Positions 45,967 to 61,736 of a DNA stretch of 64,000 nt are shown here, one piece after another. Location of the stretch: contig QQVO01000077.1 in assembly GCA_003388505.1 (NCBI GenBank), positions 1 to 64,000 of the forward strand. The letters are read 5' to 3'. Numbering within the stretch: the stretch's first letter is position 1; each line of letters opens with the position of its first letter. The notes under the pieces were generated by a model. The model worked only from the letters and a program-made list of their open reading frames with translations. It made no database searches and was not told where the DNA came from. The position numbers and the translations under genes are program-made. The DNA comes from Planctomycetota bacterium (GTDB lineage Bacteria > Planctomycetota > Planctomycetia > Planctomycetales > Planctomycetaceae).

Positions 45967-45983
45967 TAGAGCGACTCGCTCTA
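45967..45983. repeat. stop-codon palindrome family G, copy 2
   Basis: TAGAGCGACTCGCTCTA is a perfect palindrome of 8-bp arms around one base. Its right end on the plus strand (45981-45983) is the TAG stop codon of rpsR. The copy at 7648-7666 has the same relation to the PIG-L gene. Confidence 0.85.
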
Positions 45984-46259
45984 GTCTTCGCCGATGTAGG
46001 GCAGCAGCCCGATGAACCGCGCCCGCATCACCGCCTTGCGAACGGCGCGCTGATAGATGGCCGACGTTCCGGTGCGACGACGCGGCATGATGCGGTTCTG
46101 CCGGTCGATCAGACCCCGCAGCGTCCGCACGTCCTTGTAGTCGACGTACACCGGACGGGGAATTTCCCCGCCGGGGCAGAAGCGGCACTTCAGCTTCTTC
46201 TTCAGCCGGGCCCGCTTCTTCCGAATCCGTCGAATGTCCTGTTTCGTGTAGCTCGCCAT
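45981..46259 (-). CDS. rpsR: 30S ribosomal protein S18
   Basis: The 92-residue protein from ATG 46259 matches S18: CRFCPGG near residue 25, [20 protein letters not shown] and [20 protein letters not shown], with [10 protein letters not shown] at the end. It binds the 30S platform beside S6. It is not flanked here by rpsF, ssb or rplI, the usual neighbours. The two cysteines (CxxC) in the N-terminal part could bind zinc. The frame extends to 46421, but that region is a repeat and not S18. The stop codon is part of a palindrome. Confidence 0.96.
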
Positions 46260-46734
46260 AAGTCTCGTGTCGACCGATTTCCTTCGGGGGATTCTGCGCG
46301 AAGCGGGAATTATTGTGCGTTCTCGACAGGAATGCAACCAAATCGCGAATGATTTGCGATGCCGCTTATCGGAGTGCGGCGACCCGTCGCCGCTTTCAGA
46401 CGATCCCGGTGCGTCGCTCACGATTGGCGAGGGCGGGGACGCTGCTGCCGCAGACTGTCACGCATCCGGGGCAGCCAGCGCGGTTCGATCCCAAAGCGGC
46501 GACAAGTCGCCGCACTCAAAAGAAGCTCGCGACCCGCAGATTTGTTGCAGCCGGCCGTTGCAACTCCGTTCCGGGCCGAGCGTCTGAAATCGTCGCGGGA
46601 GCGCCTTCATCGCATCGGAATTCTTGCATGCGTCCCGTCAACAAGTCACAATGTCAGTTGATGCGCGACGGAACAAGGCCCGGGTCACTGCCGCGCGGTG
46701 CGCTGTCCGGGAAGGATCGCAATGGAGGGGAAAC
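46260..46734. other. 475-base divergent region upstream of rpsR and of the heme/WD40 operon
   Basis: It holds the inverted pair of family B repeats (46371-46517) and should contain the promoters of rpsR (minus) and of the four-gene operon (plus). In-frame codons before 46735 look non-coding. Confidence 0.6.
46371..46517. repeat. inverted pair of family B palindromes
   Basis: Copy 2 starts GGAGTGCGGCGAC-CC-GTCGCCGC (46371-46393). Copy 3, AAGCGGCGAC-AA-GTCGCCGCACTC (46494-46517), reads as the reverse complement of copy 2. The two face each other across about 100 bases, like a REP pair or a miniature transposable element. Confidence 0.85.
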
Positions 46735-49230
46735 ATGCGGACAACGCGAATTCTGGCCGTCGTCATCGGGCTCCTGCTGTCGAGCCTGCAAGCCGCTCTT
46801 TCCCAGGAGCCGGAACTGTCTCAATTCCCCGGTCTCGGGCCGGCAGGCGAACTTCAGGCGATTGAGTTTGAATCAGCCGGCGATCCGGTCCTGCGGGGCG
46901 TCAACGCCCGCATGCAGCTTGTTGTAACCGGCCGGTTTGCAAGCGGCCAGTTTCACGACGTCACGCATGACGTCGAGTACAGCGTCGACCACCCCGCGAT
47001 CCTCACCGTCGACGAAGATGGAGTCGTTACCCCGCTCAGCGACGGCACGGCAACGATCACCGCCACGGCCGCCGATGGCCAGACCGCCGCGCTCCAGTTG
47101 ACGGCCGAACGTTGTAGTGAACAACTGCCGATTAACTTCGCCAACGAAATTGTCCCCCTCTTCACCAAGCTCGGCTGCAACACCGGCGGCTGCCACGGCA
47201 AAGCCGACGGACAGAACGGTTTCAAACTCTCGCTGCTCGGCTTCTATCCGGACGAGGATTACGAATACCTCGTCCTGGAAGATCGCGGCCGGCGGATCTT
47301 TCCCGCCGATCCCGCCTACAGCCTGCTGTTGATGAAGCCGTCGAACCAGTTGCCGCACGGCGGCGGGCACCGTCTCTCTCCCGGTTCGTATGAGTGGAAT
47401 CTGATTAAGAACTGGATCGAACAGGGGCTGCCGTACGGTTCCGAAGACGACCCGGTGCTCAGCAGCATCGAGGTCTTTCCGAAGTCCCGCAAAATGAACC
47501 GCCGCGAGAAGCAGCAACTCCGCGTCATCGGCCATTACAGCGACGGCACAACCCGCGACGTCTCGCAACTGGCAACCTACGAATCGAACGATGAAGAAAT
47601 GGCCGTCGCCAGCGCCTTCGGCCGCGTCACAACCGACGACATCCCCGGCGAGGTCGCCGTGATGGTCCGCTTCCAGGGCGCCGTCAGCGTGTTCCGCGCG
47701 ATCATCCCACAGGGCCTTCCGGTCGAGGAGATCGCCGGGTTGAGCGAACCGATCGACGTCCACGTCTTCGCCAAGCTCAAGGAACTCGGCATCCCCCCCT
47801 CGCCCGTGTGCGACGATCAGACGTTCGTCCGCCGAGTCACCGTCGACATTGCCGGACGTTTGCCGACCGCCGTCGAAGCGCGGCAGTTCGCTGCCGACAG
47901 CGACCCGGACAAGCGCAACAAACTGATCGACCGGCTGCTCGCCGGCGAAGGCTACGGCGACTACTTCGCCAACAAATGGTCCGCCGTGTTGAGGAATAAG
48001 CGGCGGAATGCCAACGACATTCCGTATACTTACCGTTTTCACGCCTGGATCCGGTCCGCCATGCAGCAGAACATGCCGTACGACGAGTTCGTACGCAATA
48101 TTCTGGCGGCGACCGGAGACGTCGAGTCGCACCCCCCGGTCGCCTGGTATCGCGAAGTGCGGACCAACGAACAGCGGATGGAAGACACCGCCCAGCTCTT
48201 CCTCGGACTGCGTCTGGGCTGCGCCAAATGCCATCATCATCCGTTCGAGCGCTGGAGCCAGAGCGACTACTACGGCTTCCAGGCGTTCTTCTCACAGGTG
48301 GCGATGAAACAGAGCCGCCTCAACACCGTGCGGAACATCGTCGACTACGTCTCCCTCAACGGCCAGGCGCCGACCGCCCGTAATCCCCGCACGCAGACCG
48401 ACGTCCTCCCGACAGGCCTCGGCGGCGAACCGATCGAAGTTCCTCCCTATGAAGACGCACGGCACTACATGGTCGACTGGATGACCGCCCCCGACAATCC
48501 GTTCTTCGCCCGGGCGCTCGTCAACCGCTACTGGAAGCACTTCTTCGGTCGCGGCATCGTCGATCCCGAAGACGACATGCGGGTCACCAACCCCCCGTCG
48601 AACCCGGCGCTCCTCGATGCGCTCGCGCAGCACTTCATCGACAGCGGTTTCGACCTCAAGAACCTGGTGCGAACCATCTGTCGCTCACGCACTTACCAGC
48701 TCAGTTCCGAACCGAACGAGTTCAACTATCGCGACAAGCAGAACTATTCCAGTTTCTACCCCCGGCGGCTGACGGCCGAGGTGCTCTACGACGCCGTCAA
48801 TCAGGTCTCCGGGACCACATCCGGCTTCGGTGGCGTCCCGCGGGGAACCCTGGCCGTCCAACTCCCCGACAACGGCTTCAACGACTACTTCCTGCAGGTC
48901 TTCGGCAAACCGGAAGCGGAAAGTGCCTGCGAATGCGAACGCAATCCTGAAGCCAACCTCGCTCAGTCGCTGCACCTGCTCAATTCGACCGATATCCAGA
49001 GCCGCGTGGCAAACAACACCGGTAGAGCCGCCCTCTTCGCGCGCGACCAGACGCGGTTCGACGCCGAGAGCGTGACGGAACTTTACTATTGGGCCTACGC
49101 CCGGCCACCGCGACCCGAAGAACTCGACTTCGTCCTCGGCCAGATCGCACTCTATGAGAACAAGCAGCAGGCCTACGAAGACGTCCTGTGGGCGATGTTC
49201 AATTCGCGGGAATTCCAATTCGTGCGATGA
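46735..49230 (+). CDS. exported DUF1549/DUF1553 heme protein with Ig-like domains
   Basis: The 831-residue protein starts at ATG 46735 (GGAGGGG upstream) with a signal peptide ending near ALSQ. In order come a Big_2-like domain (about 35-120: DVEYSVDHPAILTVDEDGVV), a heme-like segment KLGCNTGGCHGKADG with the unusual spacing CxxxxCH, a second Big_2-like domain (around IEVFPKSRKMNRREKQQLRV), DUF1549 with a classic heme motif CAKCHHHPFERW, and DUF1553 to the end (NRYWKHFFGRGIVDPEDDMR). These domains are found mainly in planctomycetes and relatives. The function is unknown; heme suggests redox or ligand binding in the periplasm. It heads a four-gene operon. Confidence 0.88.
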   Translation: MRTTRILAVVIGLLLSSLQAALSQEPELSQFPGLGPAGELQAIEFESAGDPVLRGVNARMQLVVTGRFASGQFHDVTHDVEYSVDHPAILTVDEDGVVTPLSDGTATITATAADGQTAALQLTAERCSEQLPINFANEIVPLFTKLGCNTGGCHGKADGQNGFKLSLLGFYPDEDYEYLVLEDRGRRIFPADPAYSLLLMKPSNQLPHGGGHRLSPGSYEWNLIKNWIEQGLPYGSEDDPVLSSIEVFPKSRKMNRREKQQLRVIGHYSDGTTRDVSQLATYESNDEEMAVASAFGRVTTDDIPGEVAVMVRFQGAVSVFRAIIPQGLPVEEIAGLSEPIDVHVFAKLKELGIPPSPVCDDQTFVRRVTVDIAGRLPTAVEARQFAADSDPDKRNKLIDRLLAGEGYGDYFANKWSAVLRNKRRNANDIPYTYRFHAWIRSAMQQNMPYDEFVRNILAATGDVESHPPVAWYREVRTNEQRMEDTAQLFLGLRLGCAKCHHHPFERWSQSDYYGFQAFFSQVAMKQSRLNTVRNIVDYVSLNGQAPTARNPRTQTDVLPTGLGGEPIEVPPYEDARHYMVDWMTAPDNPFFARALVNRYWKHFFGRGIVDPEDDMRVTNPPSNPALLDALAQHFIDSGFDLKNLVRTICRSRTYQLSSEPNEFNYRDKQNYSSFYPRRLTAEVLYDAVNQVSGTTSGFGGVPRGTLAVQLPDNGFNDYFLQVFGKPEAESACECERNPEANLAQSLHLLNSTDIQSRVANNTGRAALFARDQTRFDAESVTELYYWAYARPPRPEELDFVLGQIALYENKQQAYEDVLWAMFNSREFQFVR

Positions 49231-49295
49231 TCACAGATCGTCGCCATTCAGGTCACACGCCGCGAGATCTCACGCGCCAGGAGAAAGGCGATGAC

Positions 49296-52200
49296 ATGGC
49301 GACCTCACGCTTCGCTTCGTTCGTGTTCGGGGCAGCCGCTGTTCTGCTAAGTAGCACCGGCGTCGCGGTCGCTCAACTGCCCGCCGCGCGACTCGACGGC
49401 ATCTTCCCCGCCGGCGGAAGTCCCGGTGCGACCGTCGAAACGACGATCACCGGGGCCAATCTCGACGACGCCGACCGGCTGCACTTCTCCCATCCGGGAA
49501 TCACGGCCGAGCGCAAGCTGGCCGATCCGGGGCCGTTCGATGAAGGCCCGCAACCAGTTCCGAATGAGTTCGTCGTCACGATCAAGCAAGACGTTCCGCC
49601 GGGGCACTACACCGTCCGGACTCAGGGCAAATACGGCATCTCCAATCCGCGCACATTCGAGGTCAGCGCGATCGCCGAATCCCGCGAGGAGGAACCGAAC
49701 AACACGGAGGGAGAGGCCACCCCGATCAACGGGCCGTTGCTGATCAACGGGCAGATCAACGGCGCGGCCGACGTCGACTGCTACCGGTTCGACGTCACGG
49801 CGGGGGAGAAGCTCCAGATCACCTGCCATGCGCAGAAACTTGATTCGCTGCTCGACGCCGTTGTCACCGTGACAGATACCGGCGGCCGCGTTCTGGCCGA
49901 AGCCCAGGCCGGGCCGCACGGAGACGCCGCCCTCCATCTCGCCGCCGAATCAGACTCGCAATGGGTGATCCGCGTCACCGATTCGCTGTACCGGGGTGGA
50001 CCACAATACGTCTACCGCTTGACGATCGGGGCATTACCGCACGTCGATTTCGTGTTTCCCCCCTCGGCGGTCGTCGGCTCAAGCAGCGAGTTCACGCTGT
50101 TTGGCAGCAACTTGCCGGGCGGGCAGCCGGCCGGAATCGAACTCAACGGTCGGCCGCTCGAGACACTCGCCGTCCAGATCGCCATGCCGGGCGATGTTGC
50201 GAATCACCCTTTGACCGGCATCCGTCTCTCCCCGGAGCAGGCCGAACTCGACCTCGTCCCCTATCGCGTCACCGCCCCGACCGGGTTCTCGAATCCCGTC
50301 CTGATCAGCGCCGCCACGGCGCCGGTGATCCTCGAACAGGACGGCAACGACTCGCCCGAGAACGCCCAGGCCGTCGAACTCCCCTGCGAAGTCGCCGGCC
50401 GCTTCTGGCCCCGCGGCGACCGCGACTGGTTCGAATTCACCGCCGCGGCCGGCGAGGTCGTCAACCTGGAACTCTTTTCGCAACGCCTCGGGCTCCCCAC
50501 CGATCCGGCGCTGGTGATCCAACAGGTGACCGTCAACGACGACGGCGAAGAACAGACGTCGATCCTGCAGCGTGTCGACGATCTGCAGGGCCGCGACTCC
50601 GGCTACGGGTTCGACACCCGCAGTGAAGACCCCGCCATCCGCTTCACCGCTCCCGCAGACGCCACGTACCGCGTGCTGCTGCTCGAAGGACACAGCGCGC
50701 TGCACGACGATCCACGCCTCGTCTACCGGTTCTCGATGCGCCCCGACCAGCCCGACTTCAGACTGGTCGCCGTCCCCGCCGACGCCTCCGGCGCGCTGCT
50801 GCTCCGCAAAGGGGGCCGGGACTCGATCCGCGTCGTCGCCTTCCGTCGCGACGGGTTCGACGCGCCCATCACGGTGACTGCAACCGGATTGCCCGAGGGG
50901 GTCACCGCGTCCGAGGTCGTCATCGGCCCCGCATCCACCGCGGCAACACTCATCCTCACGGCCGCAGAGAACGCAGCGCCGGCGATCGGTCAGGTGCAGA
51001 TCGTCGGCAAAGCGGTTGTGAACGACCAGGAAGTCACGCGCACCGCCCGAGCCGGCACGGTGCTCGCACCGGTGCCGTTGATGGCGCCCAATCAGCAGGG
51101 GGTCAGCTTCCCCGCCCGCCTCACGGAGAGCATTACGCTGGCCGTCTCGGCGGGAGAAACGGCCCCGGTCCTCATCACTGCCGGAGAGGACAAGCTCTGG
51201 GAAACGTCGCGCGGCGGGATTCTCAAGATCCCCTACTCCGTCGTGCGTCGCGGAGACTACAAAGGCAACATCACCGCATTCCCGGTCGACGTTCCGCCGA
51301 ATGTGCAGGCTCAGCAGTTCGCGATCAACGGCAACACGAACTCCGGCGAATTCGAAATCCGGATGACGGCTAACACGCCGCCGGGCACGTACACCTTCTA
51401 CCTCGCCGGACAGGTGCAGGGTCTGCCCTACCGCCGCAATCCGGAAGCCGCCGAAGCAGCAGCCGAACGGAAGACGCGCTTCGAAAAAATCCTCGCCGAG
51501 ACGACCGAAAAATCGAAGGCCGCCGCAGACGCGGCAACCAAAGCCAAGCAGACCCTCGACACGGCCAACGCAGAACTGAAAAAGGCCGGCGACGCCCGAA
51601 CCGCCGCCATGAAGGTCGTCACCGATGCGGAGACCGCGCTGAACAACGCCACCGCCGCCACCGAAGCAGCGAACAAAGCGGCCGCCGCCAGTCCCGACGA
51701 CGCGAATCGGAAGAAAGCCGCAGCGGACGCCGCCGCCGCGCAGACGGAGGCGGAAAAGGCCTTGAAGACCGCGCAGGACGCCCTGGCCGCCGCAGAAAAA
51801 GTCTTCGAATCCGCCACCGCCGCCGCCAAGACGGCCGGCGAAACCAAAACCAAAGCCGACATGGAAGCCGCCGACGCCGCCGCGCTCCTCCAGGAAGCGC
51901 AGCGTCTCAAACAACAGGCCGACCAGCAGGCGCAACAAGCCGCCAACGCCGCCAACCCCCGCAACATCAATTACTGGACCCCCTCCACGTCGGTGAACGT
52001 CAAGATCGTCGAGTTTCCTATTTCGATGGATGGCCCCGCCGAAACGGCGGCCGTAAAGCAGGGGGAGATGGTCGAACTCCCGGTCAAGATCACCCGCATG
52101 TATGCATTCGAGGCGCCGGTCACCCTGCAGACTCAGCTCCCCGGCGGAGTCGGCGGGATCTCGATTCCCAACGTCCAGATTCCGCAGGGACAGACTGACG

Positions 52201-52346
52201 GCAAGCTCGTCGTGAGCGCCAATGCGAACGCCACTCCCGGCGAACACGACCTCAACGTCCGCGTGCAGATGAACTTCAACGGGCAGAACCTGACATTCGA
52301 CCGCCCGGTCAAGTTGACCGTCGAAGAAGTCAAACCTGAACAATAA
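49296..52346 (+). CDS. exported PPC/Ig-domain protein with Ala-rich coiled coil
   Basis: The 1016-residue protein from ATG 49296 has a signal peptide ending near AVAQ. Residues 27-120 look like an IPT/TIG sandwich (GIFPAGGSPGATVETTITGA). PPC-like beta domains follow at about 130-240 and 350-470, each with a conserved Trp/Tyr-Phe entry (RGDRDWFEFTAAAGEVVNLE). Ig-like modules run to about 710. Residues 711-888 are Ala/Lys/Glu-rich with heptad-like repeats (AADAATKAKQTLDTANAELK), a long coiled coil. Another beta domain ends the protein. Such proteins bind surfaces or partners. The coiled coil could dimerise it or join it to the next gene product, which has a similar segment. Confidence 0.8.
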   Translation: MATSRFASFVFGAAAVLLSSTGVAVAQLPAARLDGIFPAGGSPGATVETTITGANLDDADRLHFSHPGITAERKLADPGPFDEGPQPVPNEFVVTIKQDVPPGHYTVRTQGKYGISNPRTFEVSAIAESREEEPNNTEGEATPINGPLLINGQINGAADVDCYRFDVTAGEKLQITCHAQKLDSLLDAVVTVTDTGGRVLAEAQAGPHGDAALHLAAESDSQWVIRVTDSLYRGGPQYVYRLTIGALPHVDFVFPPSAVVGSSSEFTLFGSNLPGGQPAGIELNGRPLETLAVQIAMPGDVANHPLTGIRLSPEQAELDLVPYRVTAPTGFSNPVLISAATAPVILEQDGNDSPENAQAVELPCEVAGRFWPRGDRDWFEFTAAAGEVVNLELFSQRLGLPTDPALVIQQVTVNDDGEEQTSILQRVDDLQGRDSGYGFDTRSEDPAIRFTAPADATYRVLLLEGHSALHDDPRLVYRFSMRPDQPDFRLVAVPADASGALLLRKGGRDSIRVVAFRRDGFDAPITVTATGLPEGVTASEVVIGPASTAATLILTAAENAAPAIGQVQIVGKAVVNDQEVTRTARAGTVLAPVPLMAPNQQGVSFPARLTESITLAVSAGETAPVLITAGEDKLWETSRGGILKIPYSVVRRGDYKGNITAFPVDVPPNVQAQQFAINGNTNSGEFEIRMTANTPPGTYTFYLAGQVQGLPYRRNPEAAEAAAERKTRFEKILAETTEKSKAAADAATKAKQTLDTANAELKKAGDARTAAMKVVTDAETALNNATAATEAANKAAAASPDDANRKKAAADAAAAQTEAEKALKTAQDALAAAEKVFESATAAAKTAGETKTKADMEAADAAALLQEAQRLKQQADQQAQQAANAANPRNINYWTPSTSVNVKIVEFPISMDGPAETAAVKQGEMVELPVKITRMYAFEAPVTLQTQLPGGVGGISIPNVQIPQGQTDGKLVVSANANATPGEHDLNVRVQMNFNGQNLTFDRPVKLTVEEVKPEQ

Positions 52347-52434
52347 CGGCGATCCTCGCCCCAACGGCGAGCCGCGCGGCGTCAGCCCGCGGATGCCCGC
52401 CGAACACAATCGCCCCCCGCGCAGAGAGCGCAAC

Positions 52435-55400
52435 ATGCTTCAGAATCGAATCACACCGCCACCACCCGGCTCGCGTTTTCGCAGTCGAAGCCAGGCCGTC
52501 TGTTGCGCATCAGTCGCCATCTTTCTGACAGCCGCGTCAACGACCAACGCCCAGACGCCGATTGACATCGCCGAGATCGAACGCGCCGCACCGGTCGACT
52601 TCAACAACGACATCCTGCCCGTCTTCCGCCAGAAGTGTCTCGCCTGCCACAGCGCGAGTGAACGCCAGGGCGACCTCGTACTCGAATCGCCGCAGACGAT
52701 CCTCAAGGGGGGCGATACCGGCCCGGCCGTTGTCGCCGGGAAGAGCGACGACAGCCTGCTGCTCACGCTCGCCTCTCACCAGGACGAGCCCGCCATGCCC
52801 CCGCCCGACAACGACGTCGCGGCCGCCCCTATGACGCCCGAAGAACTCGGCCTGCTCAAGCTGTGGATCGAACAGGGGGCCAAGAGCGCCGGCGGCAGCG
52901 CGGTGCTCAGCCCGCAGTCTTGGAGTCCCTTGCCCAGGGGAATCAATCCGGTCCTTGCCGCCGTCATCACCGAGGACGGCCAGTTCGCCGCGTGCAGCCG
53001 CGCCAACCAGATCTTCATCTACCATGTGCCGACCGGTCAGGTCGTCACGCGACTGACCGATCCCGCGGTGTCGGTCATGGACGGTCAGCCGGTGGCCGGG
53101 ATCGCGCACCTCGATCTCGTGCAGTCTCTCGCGTTCAACCCGGACGGCGACATGCTGGCATCCGGCAGCTTTCGCGAAGTCAAAATCTGGCGCAGGCCGC
53201 GCGACGTTCGCGCCTTGGAACTCGCCCTGGAGGCCGAATCAACCGCAGTCGCCGTCGCACCCGGCGGCGCGCTGCTGGCGACGGCCGCGAAGGACAACGT
53301 GATCCGTCTCTGGGACCGGGCCTCGGGGGAGCAGACGGCCGAGATCACCGGACACACCGACGTCGTCACCTCGTTGCGTTTCACAAATGACGGAACACGG
53401 CTCGCATCCTCGTCGAGAGACGGCACGATCCGGCTGTGGAACACCGCCGATGGCGCGCCCGCCGGCCGGATCAACGCCCCCTCACCTTTGAATGCCGTCG
53501 AGTTCGTGACCGGCGGAGCGGCCGATGCGCCCGAGACACAACTCGTCTCTGCCGGCGACGACAACCTGCTGCGGTTATGGACGATGCCCGAACCTGCCGC
53601 TGAGAAACCCGGCAACCTCTTGGCCGCGCCGCATCGGATCGCGATCACCTCAAACGGCAGTTTCGTCGCGCTGGCCGGGACGGACGGCCAGGTTCAGATC
53701 GTCGACGGCGCGCTGACAAAGATCATTCGTACCTGGAACGCCACGGAAGAGGAACAACCCGTCACCGCGCTCGCGTTCGCGCCCATGAACGCCGAGAGCG
53801 AAAAAACCGAGTCACCCATTCTGGCGACGGGTCATTCCGATGGACGCGTGACGCTGTGGAACGCCGCCGCGGGCGAGGCGATCGAAACGCTGGTCGGCTC
53901 GCTGGCATCGGTTGACGCTCTCGCCTTCCTGCCGGACGGCTCGCAACTGGCGGCCGGCGGAGCCGACGGAAACGTCACGCTCTGGAAGATGGAGCCTGAA
54001 GAGCCGGTCGTACTTGACCCCATCAGTGACTCCGCAGTCGGCGCCATCGTGAAGAGCCCCGACGGCGCGCGCCTCGCGCTTGCCGGTACGTTTGGCGAAC
54101 GCCCGGCGATCTTCATCCGGGACGTTGCCACCGGCGAACTCACTCACACGCTGCTGGGACACGAAGCAAAGGTGCTCTCGCTGGCATTTTCCTCCGACGG
54201 CACAAAGCTGCTCTCCGGCTCGGCCGACAAGACCGCTCGCGTCTGGCTGTTGGGCGACCCGAAGTTTCCCGAAGCCGCGCGATTCGCCGAGCATGCGGAG
54301 GCAGTCACGGCCGTCGCCTTCAGCGCCGACGCCTCACGCGCGGTCTCCGGCTCCGCTGCCGGAGGCGTCAAACTGTGGGCCGCGGCAGATGCGTCACTCC
54401 TCTTCGATTGTCCCGGCCACACCGGCGCAATCGTCGGGGCGGCGTTCGGCGCAGGTGACGTGCCGTTCACGGCGTCCGCCGACAAGACGGTCCGCTTCTG
54501 GAATGCCGGCAACGGGCAGCAGGCGCGGGCGATCACCGCCGCCGCGCCGATCGTCCGCATGGCGGTCAGTCCCGACGGCAGCCGGCTCGCCGTTGCAACC
54601 GCGGACAAAGTCGTCACAACCTACCTCGTCGCGAACGGCCAGGTTCAGCAGACCCTTCCCGCCCACGCAGCAGCAGTCACCGGACTCGCCTACAGTCCCG
54701 ACGGAACCCGGCTCGTGGCCGTCACGGAGACAGAGTCCGCACGCATCTGGGAAACCGAAACTGGACGATTCATCGAGGAACTGACATCTCCCGGATTGAA
54801 GCAGGCGTCATTCGGAGCGGACGCGGACCACGTTTTGCGTTGCGACGGGACCGGGCGAATCGAGACTCAGGGCCTGCGGTTCGCGGCCGCGTTGCAGGGG
54901 ATGACCGAGGCGATCACCGGCCTGGCCGTGCATCCCGGCGGTCAATTGGTGTTTGTCTCCTGCCTCGACGGAACAGTGCGAGGTTTCAATTCCCAGTCGG
55001 CAGCGCAGGCGTTCGCCGCCAATCATGGCAGCCCGGTCCACGATCTCGCCCTCTCCGCCGACGGTCAGGTTCTCTTGAGCGGCGGCAAGAACAACGTCAT
55101 TCGCGTCTGGCAGTCCGGCAATGGCGGCGCATTAGCGCCCCAGCAACTCACCGGTTTCTCCGGCCCGGTGCATGCCGTCGCCATCACACCGGACGGTGCA
55201 CGCGTCATCGGCGCTGCGTCCGACGAAACGCCCGAGGTTCTGGTCTTCGAGTTCGCCGGCGGCGCGGTCGTCGAGAAGCTGAGTGGTGAAGCGGCTGCCG
55301 TGTCCGATATCGTCGCTATGGCCGATGAGAACCGGACGCGAATTCTGACGGCAGCGCCGACGGCCGGCCTGGAGATCTCGCGGATTCACGCAGTGAAGCA

Positions 55401-57363
55401 AATCCCCGGACATTCGCAGCCGGTCACCTCGCTGGCTGCAGTCCCGGAGGCGCGATTGCAGGTTGTCTCCGGCAGTCTCGACGGTACGGCGCGGCACTGG
55501 AATCTCGAGAACGGACAGGCGATCCGCCAGTTCAATCAGGGAGGAGCGGTGACCGACGTCGCCGTCCGACCCGACGGCCTGCGGGTGGCTGCGGCCGGCA
55601 CCAACAACATCGCGCGGCTGTGGAATCTCCAGAACGGCCAGCAGATTGCGGAATTGCGCGGCGACTTGCGGCTGAAGACAGTCGTCACCCGGCTCACCCA
55701 GCAACAGACCGCCGGCGCCGCGCGACAGGCAACTGCCAAACAGGAGCTGGATGCCGCCGAGAATGACGTGCCGGTCAAGACGGAAGCCGAGAAGACCACG
55801 TCCGAAGCGCTCGCCGCAGCGAACAAAGCCGTGACCGACGCGGAAGCGGCGTTCAAGACCGCCAACGAGACCAAGACCGCTGCGGAAAAACTCGCCGTTG
55901 AGGCTGCCGCCGCCGCGCAGAAAGCAGCGCTTGCGAAAGCCGAGGCCGACCAGCTTGCCGTGGACGCCGCCGCGGCGGCGCAGCGTGCGCAGGTCCGGGC
56001 GACGCAACTGGCGGCCGTCGCACAGCAACAACCCGGCAACGAGGATCTCGCGAAGAAAGCCGCCGACGCCCAGACCGCTGCGGAAAAAGCGGCCGCCGAC
56101 GCCAAGGCTGCCGCCGACGCACAGGCCGCTCCCACCAAAGCGGCGGCCGACGCAGCCACGCTCGCCAACCAGATGGCGGCCAGAGCCGTGGAAACACAGA
56201 AGCCCTACAACGACGCACTCGCCGCCCTCAATCAGGCTGAGAGCGCGCAAAATCTCGCGGCCCAGAACCACGCGATCGCAGTCAGGGAACTCAAAGAGGC
56301 GCAAGAGAGAGTACCGGTCGCCAAAGAAGCCCTGGCCGCCGCCGATGCAGCGCTGGAAGACGTGAAGCAGAAACTGGAAGCGGCTCAGCAGGCCGCCACC
56401 GCGGCGGAACAGCCCTTGCACGCCATCGCGTTCTCTCCAGACGGTTCGCTCATCGCGACCGGCGGCGACTTTTCCGCCGTGCACACCTGGGACGGGGAAA
56501 CCGGCGCAGCGGTCGCCGCCTTCACCGGGCATGAGGCGCCGGTCCGCTCGGTCGAGTTTCTCTCTCAGGACATGTTGATCAGCGGCAGCGACGACAAAGC
56601 CGCCGCCGTCTGGGAGACGAGCCCCGCCTGGGTTCTGGAACGAACGATCGGCGCCGTCGACGACCCGTCGGTGTTCGCCGACAGGGTGATGGCGCTCGAT
56701 TTCAGCGCGGATGCGAAGCTGCTTGCAACCGGCGGCGGCGTCCCGTCCCGGTCGGGTGAAGTCTGCCTCATCAACACCGAAGACGGCAGCATCACCCTCA
56801 GGCTGCCCGCAGCACACGACGACGCGGTCTACGCCGTCTCGCTCTCCTCGGACGGCAAACGGATCGCCTCGGCCGGCGCCGACAAGTACGTCCGCATCTT
56901 CGATAGGACAACCGGCGAACAACTTCGCAGACTGGAAGGACACACCAACTACGTGCTGGCCGTCGACTGGAAGGGCGACGGCCAAACGCTCGTCAGCGGC
57001 AGCGCCGACTCGACGATCAAGTCCTGGAACGCCCAGACCGGCGATCAGATCCGCACCATTCAGGGCTTCACCTCCAAGCACGTCACCTGCATCCGGTACG
57101 TCGGCGAGACCGACATCATCGTGGCCAGTTGCGGCGATCAGACGGTGCGGCAGTACAACTCGGCCAACGGTGGACAGACCCTGCAGCCGGTAAGCGCGGA
57201 GAGCTACCTGCACTGTGTCGACGTTACGCCCGATCGCCAGATCATGATTGCCGGCGGCCAGGACGGCGTGCTGCATCTCTGGAACGGAACCAACCGCCAG
57301 GCGCTGCACACCTTGCCGCCGCCGGAAGATGCCGGCGCGGAGGAGACCGCGCAGGTTCAGTAA
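52435..57363 (+). CDS. planctomycete cytochrome c/WD40 protein, four propellers with a coiled coil
   Basis: The 1642-residue protein from ATG 52435 has a signal peptide ending near NAQT (ATG 52393 is an alternative). Residues 50-145 are a PSC-type cytochrome domain with KCLACHSASERQGDLVL (CxxCH) and AMPPPDNDV. By eye, 21 WD40 repeats follow at about 160-1085, then about 240 residues of Ala/Lys/Glu coiled coil (about 1085-1326), then seven more repeats. This fits three seven-bladed propellers, a rod and a fourth propeller. Consensus blades such as RIWETETG and HTDVVTSLRFTNDGTRLASS are clear; others are degenerate. It probably acts in the periplasm, binding heme and partner proteins. Confidence 0.88.
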   Translation: MLQNRITPPPPGSRFRSRSQAVCCASVAIFLTAASTTNAQTPIDIAEIERAAPVDFNNDILPVFRQKCLACHSASERQGDLVLESPQTILKGGDTGPAVVAGKSDDSLLLTLASHQDEPAMPPPDNDVAAAPMTPEELGLLKLWIEQGAKSAGGSAVLSPQSWSPLPRGINPVLAAVITEDGQFAACSRANQIFIYHVPTGQVVTRLTDPAVSVMDGQPVAGIAHLDLVQSLAFNPDGDMLASGSFREVKIWRRPRDVRALELALEAESTAVAVAPGGALLATAAKDNVIRLWDRASGEQTAEITGHTDVVTSLRFTNDGTRLASSSRDGTIRLWNTADGAPAGRINAPSPLNAVEFVTGGAADAPETQLVSAGDDNLLRLWTMPEPAAEKPGNLLAAPHRIAITSNGSFVALAGTDGQVQIVDGALTKIIRTWNATEEEQPVTALAFAPMNAESEKTESPILATGHSDGRVTLWNAAAGEAIETLVGSLASVDALAFLPDGSQLAAGGADGNVTLWKMEPEEPVVLDPISDSAVGAIVKSPDGARLALAGTFGERPAIFIRDVATGELTHTLLGHEAKVLSLAFSSDGTKLLSGSADKTARVWLLGDPKFPEAARFAEHAEAVTAVAFSADASRAVSGSAAGGVKLWAAADASLLFDCPGHTGAIVGAAFGAGDVPFTASADKTVRFWNAGNGQQARAITAAAPIVRMAVSPDGSRLAVATADKVVTTYLVANGQVQQTLPAHAAAVTGLAYSPDGTRLVAVTETESARIWETETGRFIEELTSPGLKQASFGADADHVLRCDGTGRIETQGLRFAAALQGMTEAITGLAVHPGGQLVFVSCLDGTVRGFNSQSAAQAFAANHGSPVHDLALSADGQVLLSGGKNNVIRVWQSGNGGALAPQQLTGFSGPVHAVAITPDGARVIGAASDETPEVLVFEFAGGAVVEKLSGEAAAVSDIVAMADENRTRILTAAPTAGLEISRIHAVKQIPGHSQPVTSLAAVPEARLQVVSGSLDGTARHWNLENGQAIRQFNQGGAVTDVAVRPDGLRVAAAGTNNIARLWNLQNGQQIAELRGDLRLKTVVTRLTQQQTAGAARQATAKQELDAAENDVPVKTEAEKTTSEALAAANKAVTDAEAAFKTANETKTAAEKLAVEAAAAAQKAALAKAEADQLAVDAAAAAQRAQVRATQLAAVAQQQPGNEDLAKKAADAQTAAEKAAADAKAAADAQAAPTKAAADAATLANQMAARAVETQKPYNDALAALNQAESAQNLAAQNHAIAVRELKEAQERVPVAKEALAAADAALEDVKQKLEAAQQAATAAEQPLHAIAFSPDGSLIATGGDFSAVHTWDGETGAAVAAFTGHEAPVRSVEFLSQDMLISGSDDKAAAVWETSPAWVLERTIGAVDDPSVFADRVMALDFSADAKLLATGGGVPSRSGEVCLINTEDGSITLRLPAAHDDAVYAVSLSSDGKRIASAGADKYVRIFDRTTGEQLRRLEGHTNYVLAVDWKGDGQTLVSGSADSTIKSWNAQTGDQIRTIQGFTSKHVTCIRYVGETDIIVASCGDQTVRQYNSANGGQTLQPVSAESYLHCVDVTPDRQIMIAGGQDGVLHLWNGTNRQALHTLPPPEDAGAEETAQVQ

Positions 57364-57479
57364 CGAACGGACTCTTCGCAAGCCCGAATTCACGCCGCCG
57401 TGTGCAATACATGCGGCCGGTGCATCCGTTCGTGACTCTCTCTCAACATCTGCTGATTGACAGCGAAGGGAAACACCCG

Positions 57480-60400
57480 ATGATCCTGCGCGCCGCGATC
57501 TTCACCCTTCTGTTCCTCTCCTGCGTAGCAACCGCGTTTTCTCAGGAACAGGCCGCCCCCTGGACCGGGCACGCCGGGCCGGTCTCTGCAGCGCAGTTCA
57601 CGCCCGACGGGCGGATCGTGCTCTCCAGCGGGCTCGATGGAACCGTCCGCATCTGGAACGCGGCCGACGGCGCTCTGCTGCGCACCTACGACGAACACGA
57701 AGGACAGGTGCTCTGCCTCGCCGTCAGTCCCGATGGGCGAACGATCGCCACCGGCTCGCGCGACAACACCATCCGGTTGTGGGATGTCTTCATCCCCTGG
57801 CCGCTCGAAGATCGCCCCGGTCCCGAAGCTCCGATCCGCGCACTCGAAATTGCCGCTGGCGGAGAGTGGAGCGCCGCGGCGAGCGACGACAAAACAATCA
57901 CCGTCTGGAACCACGCCGAAAAAGCAGAGCCGCTCAAACTGACCGGACATACGGAGCCCGTGCTGACGCTCAGCGCCAGCCCCGACGAGACGCTGCTGGC
58001 CGCCGGCGACGCGGCCGGCGAAATCCGCTTGTGGAACATCGCTGACGGCAAAGAGACCGGGGCGCTCGGCGCTCATGCCGGCCCCGTGGCCGGCGTCGCC
58101 TGGCATCCGGAACAGCCGCACCTCCTCTCGGCCGGCGCGGACGGAACCCTCAAGTGGTGGCAAACCCCGCTCACCCCCCCGCGCGATCTTCTCGCCCATC
58201 CCCAGGCGGTCACTGCCATCGCCGCAACTGCCGACGGCAAATTGATCGCCACCGCCGCGGCCGACAAGATCGTCAGATTGCTGGACGTGGAATCGGGCGA
58301 GCAGACGCTGGCGACGAAACAACAACCGGCGGCGATTCGCGATGTCGCGTTCGCGCCGGACGGCTCGAAGTTCGCAGCCGCAGATGACGACGGGGTGGTT
58401 CGCATCTGGGTGGCGGCCAACGGTTTCCCCCTGCCCGAGCTGCGCGGCCACGCCGGCCCCGCGCGGGCGGTGGCGTTCAACGCCGACGCCACGCAGCTTG
58501 TCACCGCAGGGGACGATGGAACGGCCCGGTTGTGGATGCTGCCGGCTGCCGAGCGAATCGTTCAAGGCCAAGCCGACGCCGCGGCGGCCGCCATGAGCGC
58601 CGACGGAAAATGGTTCGCTGTCGCCTCGAGTGCCGGCGACCAGCATACGGCCGTGGTGCGCGACGCCGCCACCGGCGCTGTACGGGCCACTCTCACTGAC
58701 CACGAGGGGACGATCACTTCCCTCGCCTTCAGCGCCGACGCCGCTCGGCTCATCACCGGGTCCGCCGACAAGACAGCCCGCGTCTGGAATCTGGCCAACG
58801 GCCAGCAGCTTTCCGTCTTCACGCACGAAGCTCCGGTCCGCGCCGTCGCCTTCTCGGCCGACGGCAATCAAGCCTACTCCGGCGGCGACGACAACGCGAT
58901 CAAACAATGGACCGTCGCCGACGGAGCGGAGGTGCGAACCATTGCCGGACACACCGCTGCCCTGTCGTCGCTGGTCGTCGCCGGCCAGCGACTCATCTCA
59001 GGCTCGGCCGACTCCACGATCCGCATCTGGAACACGGCCGACGGCGCGGCGGTGCGCACAATCAACCACGGGCAGGCGGTGACCGCGATGGACGTCAGCG
59101 CTGACGGCGCCCGCATCGCCGCGACCGGACCCGACAAACAGGTGCGGACCTTCACCGCCGCCGACGGCGCGGCGACCGTCGTGCTTCCCGCCTCCGACGA
59201 GCCCATCACCCGGCTCGACTGGTCGCCGGATGCGACCCAATTCATGACGGCAACTTCGGCCGCCGTCCGGGTCTGGAATCTGGAAGGTCAATTGCAGGAG
59301 GAACAGTCGCTCAGCGGCCCGCCGCTGGCAGCCGGCTTCACTCCCGATGCCGCCAAAGTACGCTCCGTCCTCACAGACGGTTCCTACCACGACCGCCCGC
59401 TCGCACTGGTGCGCATTTTCACCGGCCATGAAGGCCCCGTGCGAGGCCTCGCCCTCAGCGCCAACGGCGCGCAGCTATTGACCGCCGGCGCCGACAAGTC
59501 TGTCCGCCTGTGGACCGTTGCAGACGGGACGGCCGTACGGACATTCGCCGGACCACAGGATGAAGTCACGCGCGTCGCCTTCTCGCCCGACGGCGCACAG
59601 GTACTCGCCACGAGTCTCGACAAGTCGGTCCACGCCTGGGCGCTGGCCGACGGCGCAGCACAGGCGCCGTTCGTGCATCCCGACGTGGTGACCGCATTCA
59701 CCATGAGTCGCGACGGTACGCGGCTGGCCACTGCCTGTAACGACGGCTTCATTCGCATCTGGCACCAAGCCACCGGGCGCGAATGGGAACGGATGCCCGG
59801 CCACGCGGAGGGAACGGCTGAACTGTCGTTTCTGGGCGAGACGATCGAACTCGCCTCCGCCGGAGCGGACAAACTCGTCCGCATTTCATCGCCCGCAGGC
59901 CGGCGTATGATCGTCGCGCACGAGACGAAACTGAGCGCACTCGCGATCACGGCGAACGGCGCACAGGTCGCTACCGCGGGCGACGAGCCGGTTGTCCGCT
60001 TCTGGAACACCGCCGACGGTGCAGCCGCCCGGCAACTCGCCGGAGCTGCCGCCCCGCTGATTTGCGTCGCGATCCGCGGTGACGACCAGCAGTGCGCCGC
60101 GATTGACGCCGTCGGAAAGCTCTACCTCTGGAGCCTCGCCAACAACCAGCTCACGCACACCGTCGAAGTCGGTGCCGCTCCCGAGGACGTAGCGTTCAGC
60201 GCGGACGGCGAGCGAGTCGCCGTCACGTCGACGACCGGGTTGATTCACGTCTACGACACGACCGAAGCTCAACTCGTCCAGGAGCTGGCCGCAGCCGAGC
60301 AGGAAGCTCAACACGCGATCCAGTTCGGACCGGACCGCACCATCGTCACCGGCGGCGCTGCAGGAGTCGTGCACGTCTGGGCCGAGGCCTCCCCTGCATC

Positions 60401-61043
60401 GGTCGGCACGCTCAGCGGTCACAGCGCACAGGTCAACGACCTGGCCTTCAGCGCGGACGGGGCAACGCTTGTCTCGGCCGGTTCCGACCAGACCGCCCGC
60501 CTGTGGGACATCGCGACCCGCGCTCAGACGAAACAGTTCGCCGGCCACACCGGTCACGTCTACGGTGCAGCCTTCGCGCCCGACGGCGCACGCATCGCCA
60601 CCGCCGGAGTCGACGGAACCGTCCGCCTGTGGGACGTCGCCGGCGGCAACCAGACGTCTCAACTGACAGACGGCGAGACCCCGCCGCCCGCCTTCGACGT
60701 CAGCTTCAATCCCGACGGCTCCATGCTCGCCGCCTGCGGCCCGGACGGCGCAATTCGCATCTGGAACACCGCGTCGGGCGCGCTCGAGCGGATAATCGCA
60801 CCGGCAGAAAACCCGCAGCCCCTGTATGCGGTCGGCTACAACCCGGCCGGCACACGCATCATCACCTGCGGTCACGCCGGCGCCCTCACGATCTGGAACA
60901 CCGCCGACGGCGCATCCCTCTTCCAGACGAACCTCCCCGCCGCCGGTTACCTCGCCCGGCCATCCACCGACGCCGCCCGCCTCGTCGCCGCCTGCGCCGA
61001 TGGAGTCGTACGGATTGTGGATGTTCCGGCGAACGCGCGGTGA
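57480..61043 (+). CDS. exported WD40-repeat protein, about 28 repeats
   Basis: The 1187-residue protein from ATG 57480 (GAAGGG upstream) has a short signal peptide (MILRAAIFTLLFLSCVATAF). The mature protein consists almost wholly of WD40 repeats. By eye I count 28, beginning with GHAGPVSAAQFTPDGRIVLS and ending near ADGVVRIVDVPANAR, which fits four seven-bladed propellers in a chain. Repeat 15 is the most degenerate. No cytochrome domain and no coiled coil are present. It is the last gene of the operon, 116 bases after the cytochrome/WD40 gene, and its blades resemble that protein's, so the two probably arose by duplication. Confidence 0.88.
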   Translation: MILRAAIFTLLFLSCVATAFSQEQAAPWTGHAGPVSAAQFTPDGRIVLSSGLDGTVRIWNAADGALLRTYDEHEGQVLCLAVSPDGRTIATGSRDNTIRLWDVFIPWPLEDRPGPEAPIRALEIAAGGEWSAAASDDKTITVWNHAEKAEPLKLTGHTEPVLTLSASPDETLLAAGDAAGEIRLWNIADGKETGALGAHAGPVAGVAWHPEQPHLLSAGADGTLKWWQTPLTPPRDLLAHPQAVTAIAATADGKLIATAAADKIVRLLDVESGEQTLATKQQPAAIRDVAFAPDGSKFAAADDDGVVRIWVAANGFPLPELRGHAGPARAVAFNADATQLVTAGDDGTARLWMLPAAERIVQGQADAAAAAMSADGKWFAVASSAGDQHTAVVRDAATGAVRATLTDHEGTITSLAFSADAARLITGSADKTARVWNLANGQQLSVFTHEAPVRAVAFSADGNQAYSGGDDNAIKQWTVADGAEVRTIAGHTAALSSLVVAGQRLISGSADSTIRIWNTADGAAVRTINHGQAVTAMDVSADGARIAATGPDKQVRTFTAADGAATVVLPASDEPITRLDWSPDATQFMTATSAAVRVWNLEGQLQEEQSLSGPPLAAGFTPDAAKVRSVLTDGSYHDRPLALVRIFTGHEGPVRGLALSANGAQLLTAGADKSVRLWTVADGTAVRTFAGPQDEVTRVAFSPDGAQVLATSLDKSVHAWALADGAAQAPFVHPDVVTAFTMSRDGTRLATACNDGFIRIWHQATGREWERMPGHAEGTAELSFLGETIELASAGADKLVRISSPAGRRMIVAHETKLSALAITANGAQVATAGDEPVVRFWNTADGAAARQLAGAAAPLICVAIRGDDQQCAAIDAVGKLYLWSLANNQLTHTVEVGAAPEDVAFSADGERVAVTSTTGLIHVYDTTEAQLVQELAAAEQEAQHAIQFGPDRTIVTGGAAGVVHVWAEASPASVGTLSGHSAQVNDLAFSADGATLVSAGSDQTARLWDIATRAQTKQFAGHTGHVYGAAFAPDGARIATAGVDGTVRLWDVAGGNQTSQLTDGETPPPAFDVSFNPDGSMLAACGPDGAIRIWNTASGALERIIAPAENPQPLYAVGYNPAGTRIITCGHAGALTIWNTADGASLFQTNLPAAGYLARPSTDAARLVAACADGVVRIVDVPANAR

Positions 61044-61055
61044 AGAATGCACCCC

Positions 61056-61736
61056 TTATCCCATCCGAAATCGCTCGCCGTCGTCGTGCAGGTCGTTTTG
61101 CACCCACGGGTCGCCCCGGTCGTGATAGCCCCCCTGTTCCCACAGCCCCGGACGGTCTTCGGCCACCAGTTCCACCGCTTTCACCCACTTCGCGCTCTTC
61201 CACGCATAAAGCTGAGGAATGATGAGCCGCACCGGACCTCCGTGGTCGGCCGAGATCGGCTCCCCGTCGTGCGTATCGGCGAAGAGAGCGTCCTCGGCGG
61301 TGAAGTATTCCAGCGGGAGATTGGTCGTCCACCCGTTGTCGTAGCCGAGCGGCAGCGCGAACCGCGCCTCCGGCTTCACGCCGGCCCGGCCGAGAATCTC
61401 CCGTGTCGAGACCCCTTCCCACACGTTCCCGAGACGCGACCAGCGAGTCACACAATGAAAGTCGGAGAAGACCTGCACCCGCGGCAGCGCGCGAAACTCC
61501 TCCCAGGTGAAGCTCAGCGGCGTCTCCACCAGTCCGCCGACCTCCAGCCGCCAGTCCTCGAGAGTAATTTGCGGCACCGAACCGTAATGCAGCACCGGCC
61601 ACTTCCGCGTCCGCGCCTGACCCGGCGGAATCCGATTCTTGCGGTGCGTGTCGGGACTGATGATCGCCCCCGGCGGCGCATCTCCGGGGGCGAGCGGCTC
61701 GCCCGGTTGATACTTCGGATCGTCGTGGTCAGACAT
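61056..61736 (-). CDS. sulfite-oxidase-family molybdopterin protein, cytoplasmic
   Basis: The 226-residue protein has the molybdopterin core of the sulfite oxidase/YedY family: SFTWEEFRALPRVQVFSDFH leads into the Mo-ligand Cys in FHCVTRWS, followed by VWEGVSTREIL and ADHGGPVRLIIPQLYAWKS. No Tat or Sec signal and no heme or dimer domain is present, so it is a minimal cytoplasmic version. Substrates in the family include sulfite, methionine sulfoxide and nitrate. The gene is convergent with the WD40 operon (gap 12 bases) and is not part of it. Confidence 0.9.
   Translation of the reverse strand: MSDHDDPKYQPGEPLAPGDAPPGAIISPDTHRKNRIPPGQARTRKWPVLHYGSVPQITLEDWRLEVGGLVETPLSFTWEEFRALPRVQVFSDFHCVTRWSRLGNVWEGVSTREILGRAGVKPEARFALPLGYDNGWTTNLPLEYFTAEDALFADTHDGEPISADHGGPVRLIIPQLYAWKSAKWVKAVELVAEDRPGLWEQGGYHDRGDPWVQNDLHDDGERFRMG

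Follow-up and report, generated by a model that had tools for sequence, protein, structure and literature searches.

Comparison of sequences points to a three-gene core, g1, g2, and g3, within a run of four genes on the 64,000-nucleotide stretch of DNA analyzed here, which we call the window (contig C34 of genome G000). The interpretation of g1, g2, and g3 as a functional unit is well supported because the order of the core is conserved, its genes co-occur, they are retained when dispersed, and fusions exist. Whether the four genes encode one exported heme-protein system, with g1, g2, and g3 as its core and g4 as an extra propeller protein, appears to us evenly balanced.

The gene run and the encoded proteins

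The four open reading frames are consecutive on the plus strand, as are the features within them, and encode proteins of 831, 1016, 1642, and 1187 amino acids. They are separated by gaps of 65 (g1-g2), 88 (g2-g3), and 116 (g3-g4) bases; an earlier note on this DNA had described four co-directional genes with these gaps, and starts, stops, and gaps were all re-found exactly. It had also assigned signal peptides to all four proteins. Read by eye, the N termini are indeed signal-like, each showing a plausible cleavage end as well as a short basic segment and a hydrophobic core. The proteins are presumably exported, and a putative complex of them would be sited in the periplasm. The run is bordered upstream by minus-strand genes for a bS18-like ribosomal protein (45981-46421, identified by eye and transcribed away from the operon) and a YggS-like protein, and downstream by a minus-strand molybdopterin oxidoreductase gene (61056-61736). 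Because opposite-strand genes stand at both borders, no further gene belongs to the run. Consensus scans for promoters and terminators around g1 to g4 gave signals near background.

The g1 protein (46735-49230) consists of a signal-like N terminus, a Big_2 domain, a heme domain with a CX4CH motif, a second Ig-like domain, DUF1549 (PSCyt2), and DUF1553 (PSD1). Pfam matched Big_2 and, in order, PF07583 (DUF1549; E value of 3.5e-52) and PF07587 (DUF1553; 4.5e-47), so that the previous description as a DUF1549/DUF1553 heme protein holds for the families, while its single heme motif gives way to two. One is the CxxCH of DUF1549 (C496-AK-C499-H500, within CAKCHHHP; 48220-48234). The other, C148-x4-C153-H154 (47176-47196), escapes both CxxCH searches and Pfam, and its domain, lying between the Ig-like domains, had no Pfam match up to an E value of 1 and thus none to PF07635 (PSCyt1). 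We read the CX4CH stretch as a probable heme site resembling that of a cytochrome, with the loop widened, since the motif and H208 (in HGGG; 47356-47358), a candidate second axial ligand, are invariant across 72 g1 relatives and one relative, at locus L047, carries a CxxCH (CTSCH) at the same place. C496, C499, and H500 are likewise invariant across the 72 relatives. The predicted g1 structure (mean pLDDT of 87.6) runs from an Ig-like domain through the heme domain and another Ig-like domain to an all-helical DUF1549-DUF1553 part; residues 148 to 169 are poorly predicted, and nowhere is the model less confident than in the CX4CH loop. In a fold search with this model, Ig-like domains lead among the matches listed, their nearest folds there including S-layer, LigA/B, and intimin domains. 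The helical part gave no information among those matches, and a sequence search found no convincing relative of known structure for the DUF1549/DUF1553 part. With no convincing structural relative and with fold matches led by Ig-like domains, a catalytic role for g1 is a guess.

The g2 protein (49296-52346) is a chain of beta-sandwich domains, including PPC or collagen-binding-like domains, with one helical hairpin (51441-51950) formed by helices 716 to 798 and 803 to 885. The PPC family (PF04151) was matched with an E value of 6.6e-9 and is also found in 38 of 41 relatives, and single g2 domains resemble collagen-binding PPC domains, with a TM score by target of about 0.8. The protein had been described as PPC/coiled coil; the PPC assignment stood, and the coil resolves, in a confident model (mean pLDDT of 91.0), into a hairpin of 83+83 residues.

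The two remaining proteins match their earlier descriptions, g3 as a cytochrome c/WD40 protein and g4 as WD40 only. In g3 (52435-57363), a PSCyt1 cytochrome domain (PF07635; residues 68 to 125, E value of 1.5e-15) precedes WD40 repeats, a coil (55684-56412), and further WD40 repeats; with a crude home-made profile, about 17 repeats were detected before the coil and 7 after it. The CxxCH of PSCyt1 (52636-52650) and an MPP motif, whose M121 (52795-52797) is a candidate axial ligand, are invariant throughout the set of g3 proteins aligned. The only Pfam family matched by g4 (57480-61043) is WD40, with about 27 repeats by the same profile and no heme motif in the sequence. Some repeat counts lie near multiples of seven (27 in g4, and 14 and 33 among loci L031, L167, and L173); counts of 18 and 24 fit less well, unless repeats were missed. 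The closest relative of g4 in its own genome is an 1858-amino-acid WD40 open reading frame (L172:11835-17408), with a PSCyt1-DUF1549 gene at a distance of about 3.5 kb. Direct pairing of the g2 and g3 coils was also considered. It predicted correlated coil lengths, and a rho of 0.09 gave it no support.

Conservation of the three-gene core

Named loci with g1 numbered 80, of which 59 extend 2.5 kb or more beyond the gene on its downstream side; the loci were sampled by similarity to the g1 of the window and are not phylogenetically independent. A PPC gene lies next to g1 in 50 of these 59 loci, and a PSCyt1(-WD40) gene is third in 38 of the 39 with room beyond the PPC gene. Loci with this order and strand come from Planctomycetes and Verrucomicrobia, mostly from metagenome-assembled genomes (MAGs) but with closed genomes among them (e.g., CP036272.1 and CP036279.1), and most loci from relatives of the window's genome have the g1-g2-g3 order as well. 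This conservation across the two groups supports a linked functional unit. Rare adjacency of the families in other genomes had been named as a result that would speak against the proposal; the adjacency proved to be conserved for g1, g2, and g3. The linked unit is thus one of three genes and not of four as proposed, g4 being an addition in one subclade.

Within the window's genome, 10 of 12 g1-subfamily loci have a PPC neighbor, whereas none of 20 other DUF1549 loci has a PPC or PSCyt1-WD40 gene next to it; for PPC neighbors of the g1 subfamily versus other DUF1549 genes, Fisher P = 1e-6. The one neighbor tested at the control loci is a DUF1501 gene, and at many of the remaining control loci the neighbor is of similar length. 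Core families are also joined in single genes of the same genome, one with the architecture PSCyt1-WD40-Big_2-DUF1549-DUF1553 (L042:9988-15132) and another with PSCyt1-WD40-PPC (L039:6444-9293). Two further arrangements were seen. At L101:9785-15575, g1 is followed directly by a PSCyt1-WD40 gene, with no PPC gene between them, and at L047, two neighboring sets of g1-g2-g3-type genes stand in mirrored order on one strand of one genome.

A-type and B-type clusters

The window cluster is a paralogue of the core, here called B-type, that is marked by g4 and whose g3 gained about 700 residues of WD40 repeats. In a tree of 106 g1 proteins, made by a quick method with SH-aLRT support only, the g1 of the window falls in a fully supported clade of 16 rows. 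All 10 rows of this clade that keep a PPC neighbor also have a WD40-only gene preceding g1, following g3, or in both places; the other six g1 loci are without g2 or g3 neighbors on the stretch fetched. The genome of the window also carries an A-type operon (contig C28, locus L031) with the same g1-g2-g3 order and domains. However, its g3 has only 961 amino acids, with 7+7 WD40 repeats, compared with 1642 in the B-type g3, and the operon has no WD40-only gene. Seven repeats on each side of the coil suggest that the A-type g3 may form two propellers joined by that coil. A gene for a PQQ/BamB-like propeller (L031:7278-8630) starts 3 bases after the A-type g3.

A sample of 199 genomes of the class was scored for B-type genes, with thresholds chosen after the scores were seen: at least 1200 bits for g1 (next best, 1065) and at least 747 bits for g2, where the cut is less clean (next best, 704). 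By these thresholds, the genomes with a B-type g1 and those with a B-type g2 are an identical set of 11 out of 199, made up of G000 and ten others. A B-type g3 is present in all ten of the others, although it has 1335 amino acids in G169 and lies on broken contigs in G181; the 16 genomes used for comparison have none, their best score being 630 bits. Of the ten, eight have a WD40-only gene adjoining g1 or g3; in G152 it is on another contig, and G187 has none at threshold. None of the 16 comparison genomes has a WD40-only gene beside the cluster.

Four MAGs (G045 to G048) have full-length B-type g1, g2, and g3 genes, each on a different contig, and in G045 and G046, the two searched for it, a WD40-only gene is on yet another one; separate MAG contigs give no distances between the genes. 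The dispersed g3, WD40, and g1 genes have other neighbors on the stretches read. Retention of g1, g2, and g3 without linkage argues for a joint function. A lone B-type g1 elsewhere (L114:12427-19272) adjoins a gene for a 2281-amino-acid TPR protein.

Possible functions and relation to known PSCyt genes

The domain families of g1 to g4 are already known. The PSCyt1-PSCyt2-PSD1 genes that are paired with DUF1501 share with g1 the DUF1549-DUF1553 core and a CxxCH, and, like the g1 family, they are predicted heme proteins with many copies per genome. However, g1 has Big_2, the CX4CH domain, and an Ig-like domain where those genes have PSCyt1, and, instead of DUF1501, it is partnered with PPC and PSCyt1-WD40 genes. 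No DUF1501 gene adjoins the g1 of the window, where the neighbors are g2 and the bS18-like and YggS-like genes; a DUF1501 gene is kept beside a few g1 relatives (L037, L038, and L140). An open-access literature search on the operon gave general PSCyt papers only and, the supplementary neighbor figure of He et al. aside, no description of a g1-g2-g3 operon, the CX4CH domain, or the A/B duplication. In the part consulted, He et al. 2017 (PMC5615132) report freshwater verrucomicrobial PSCyt genes with Big_2 and WD40, the same domain families as in g1 to g4, with conserved architectures and neighbors and of unknown function; that part describes no g1-g2-g3 operon, A/B duplication, or WD40-only partner. 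The part consulted of a T. immobilis proteome paper yielded nothing on genes of the g1-g4 type. A DUF1549/DUF1553 gene of R. baltica, RB10051, has been considered in the context of the common stress response; a sigma factor was named as the likely regulator of the gene, and its domains were taken to suggest a redox function (PMC2754498).

The best mechanism we can offer, though a tentative one, would have a diheme in g1 pass electrons to the g3 cytochrome, with propellers as the scaffold. The g1 protein would be the redox or catalytic subunit, its DUF1549 heme lying beside conserved HHHP, H602, and EDD/R residues; substrate electrons would enter through the putative diheme and leave via the CX4CH heme, probably bis-His (H154/H208). 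From g1 they would pass to the His/Met cytochrome in g3 and then into the respiratory chain. In g3 and g4, the WD40 propellers could act as a docking scaffold, and g2, with its beta-sandwich chain and its helical hairpin, may present or anchor the assembly. Heme loading, axial ligands, the physical complex, and the direction of electron flow are what we infer here. More tentatively, with the balance somewhat against it, the system may be a new type of exported oxidoreductase complex found across the PVC bacteria, in which a diheme DUF1549/DUF1553 enzyme without known structural relative works with a cytochrome on multi-propeller WD40 scaffolds, the window holding a giant duplicate with an added propeller subunit.

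A structural assembly of the cell surface or envelope, for adhesion or as a coat, would use the hemes for assembly or sensing and not for catalysis. The two Ig-like domains of g1, with S-layer, LigA/B, and intimin domains among the nearest folds listed, the collagen-binding-like beta-sandwich chain of g2, and the WD40 and coil interaction modules would all suit such a role. However, redox use would lead one to expect invariance, and this is seen for both heme sites of g1 across its 72 relatives and for the CxxCH and MPP of the aligned g3 proteins; Big_2 domains are also found in many enzymes. We regard a surface assembly as unlikely. That the genes are mere neighbors, hitchhiking in a paralogue-rich genome, is conceivable since G000 has about 60 DUF1549 genes, counted as profile matches, and many WD40 genes, so that chance neighbors could arise. 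This explanation is already disfavored, and we consider it highly improbable, given the absence of such neighbors at the control loci, the order kept across phyla, the fusions, and the matched retention after dispersal.

A redox system that processes carbohydrates, acting on oligosaccharides, would be one substrate class of the electron transfer proposal, and we judge this particular version improbable too. In the part consulted, He et al. 2017 (PMC5615132) report sulfatases in the neighborhood of PSCyt genes, fusions of PSCyt genes to carbohydrate-binding modules, and PSCyt densities inverse to those of glycoside hydrolases, and a sugar-related role of g1 to g4 is suggested by this general PSCyt literature only. 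However, no glycoside hydrolase or sulfatase domain occurs among the matches listed for g1 to g4 or in the flanking genes tested.

The DUF1549 and DUF1553 families are strongly multiplied in Planctomycetes, as the gene count for this genome illustrates, and their Pfam names still read "unknown function." With conserved partners, fusions, and a compact A-type operon, their function becomes a question about a testable complex, and the system offers defined putative heme sites and a natural duplicate, the A and B types, for comparison.
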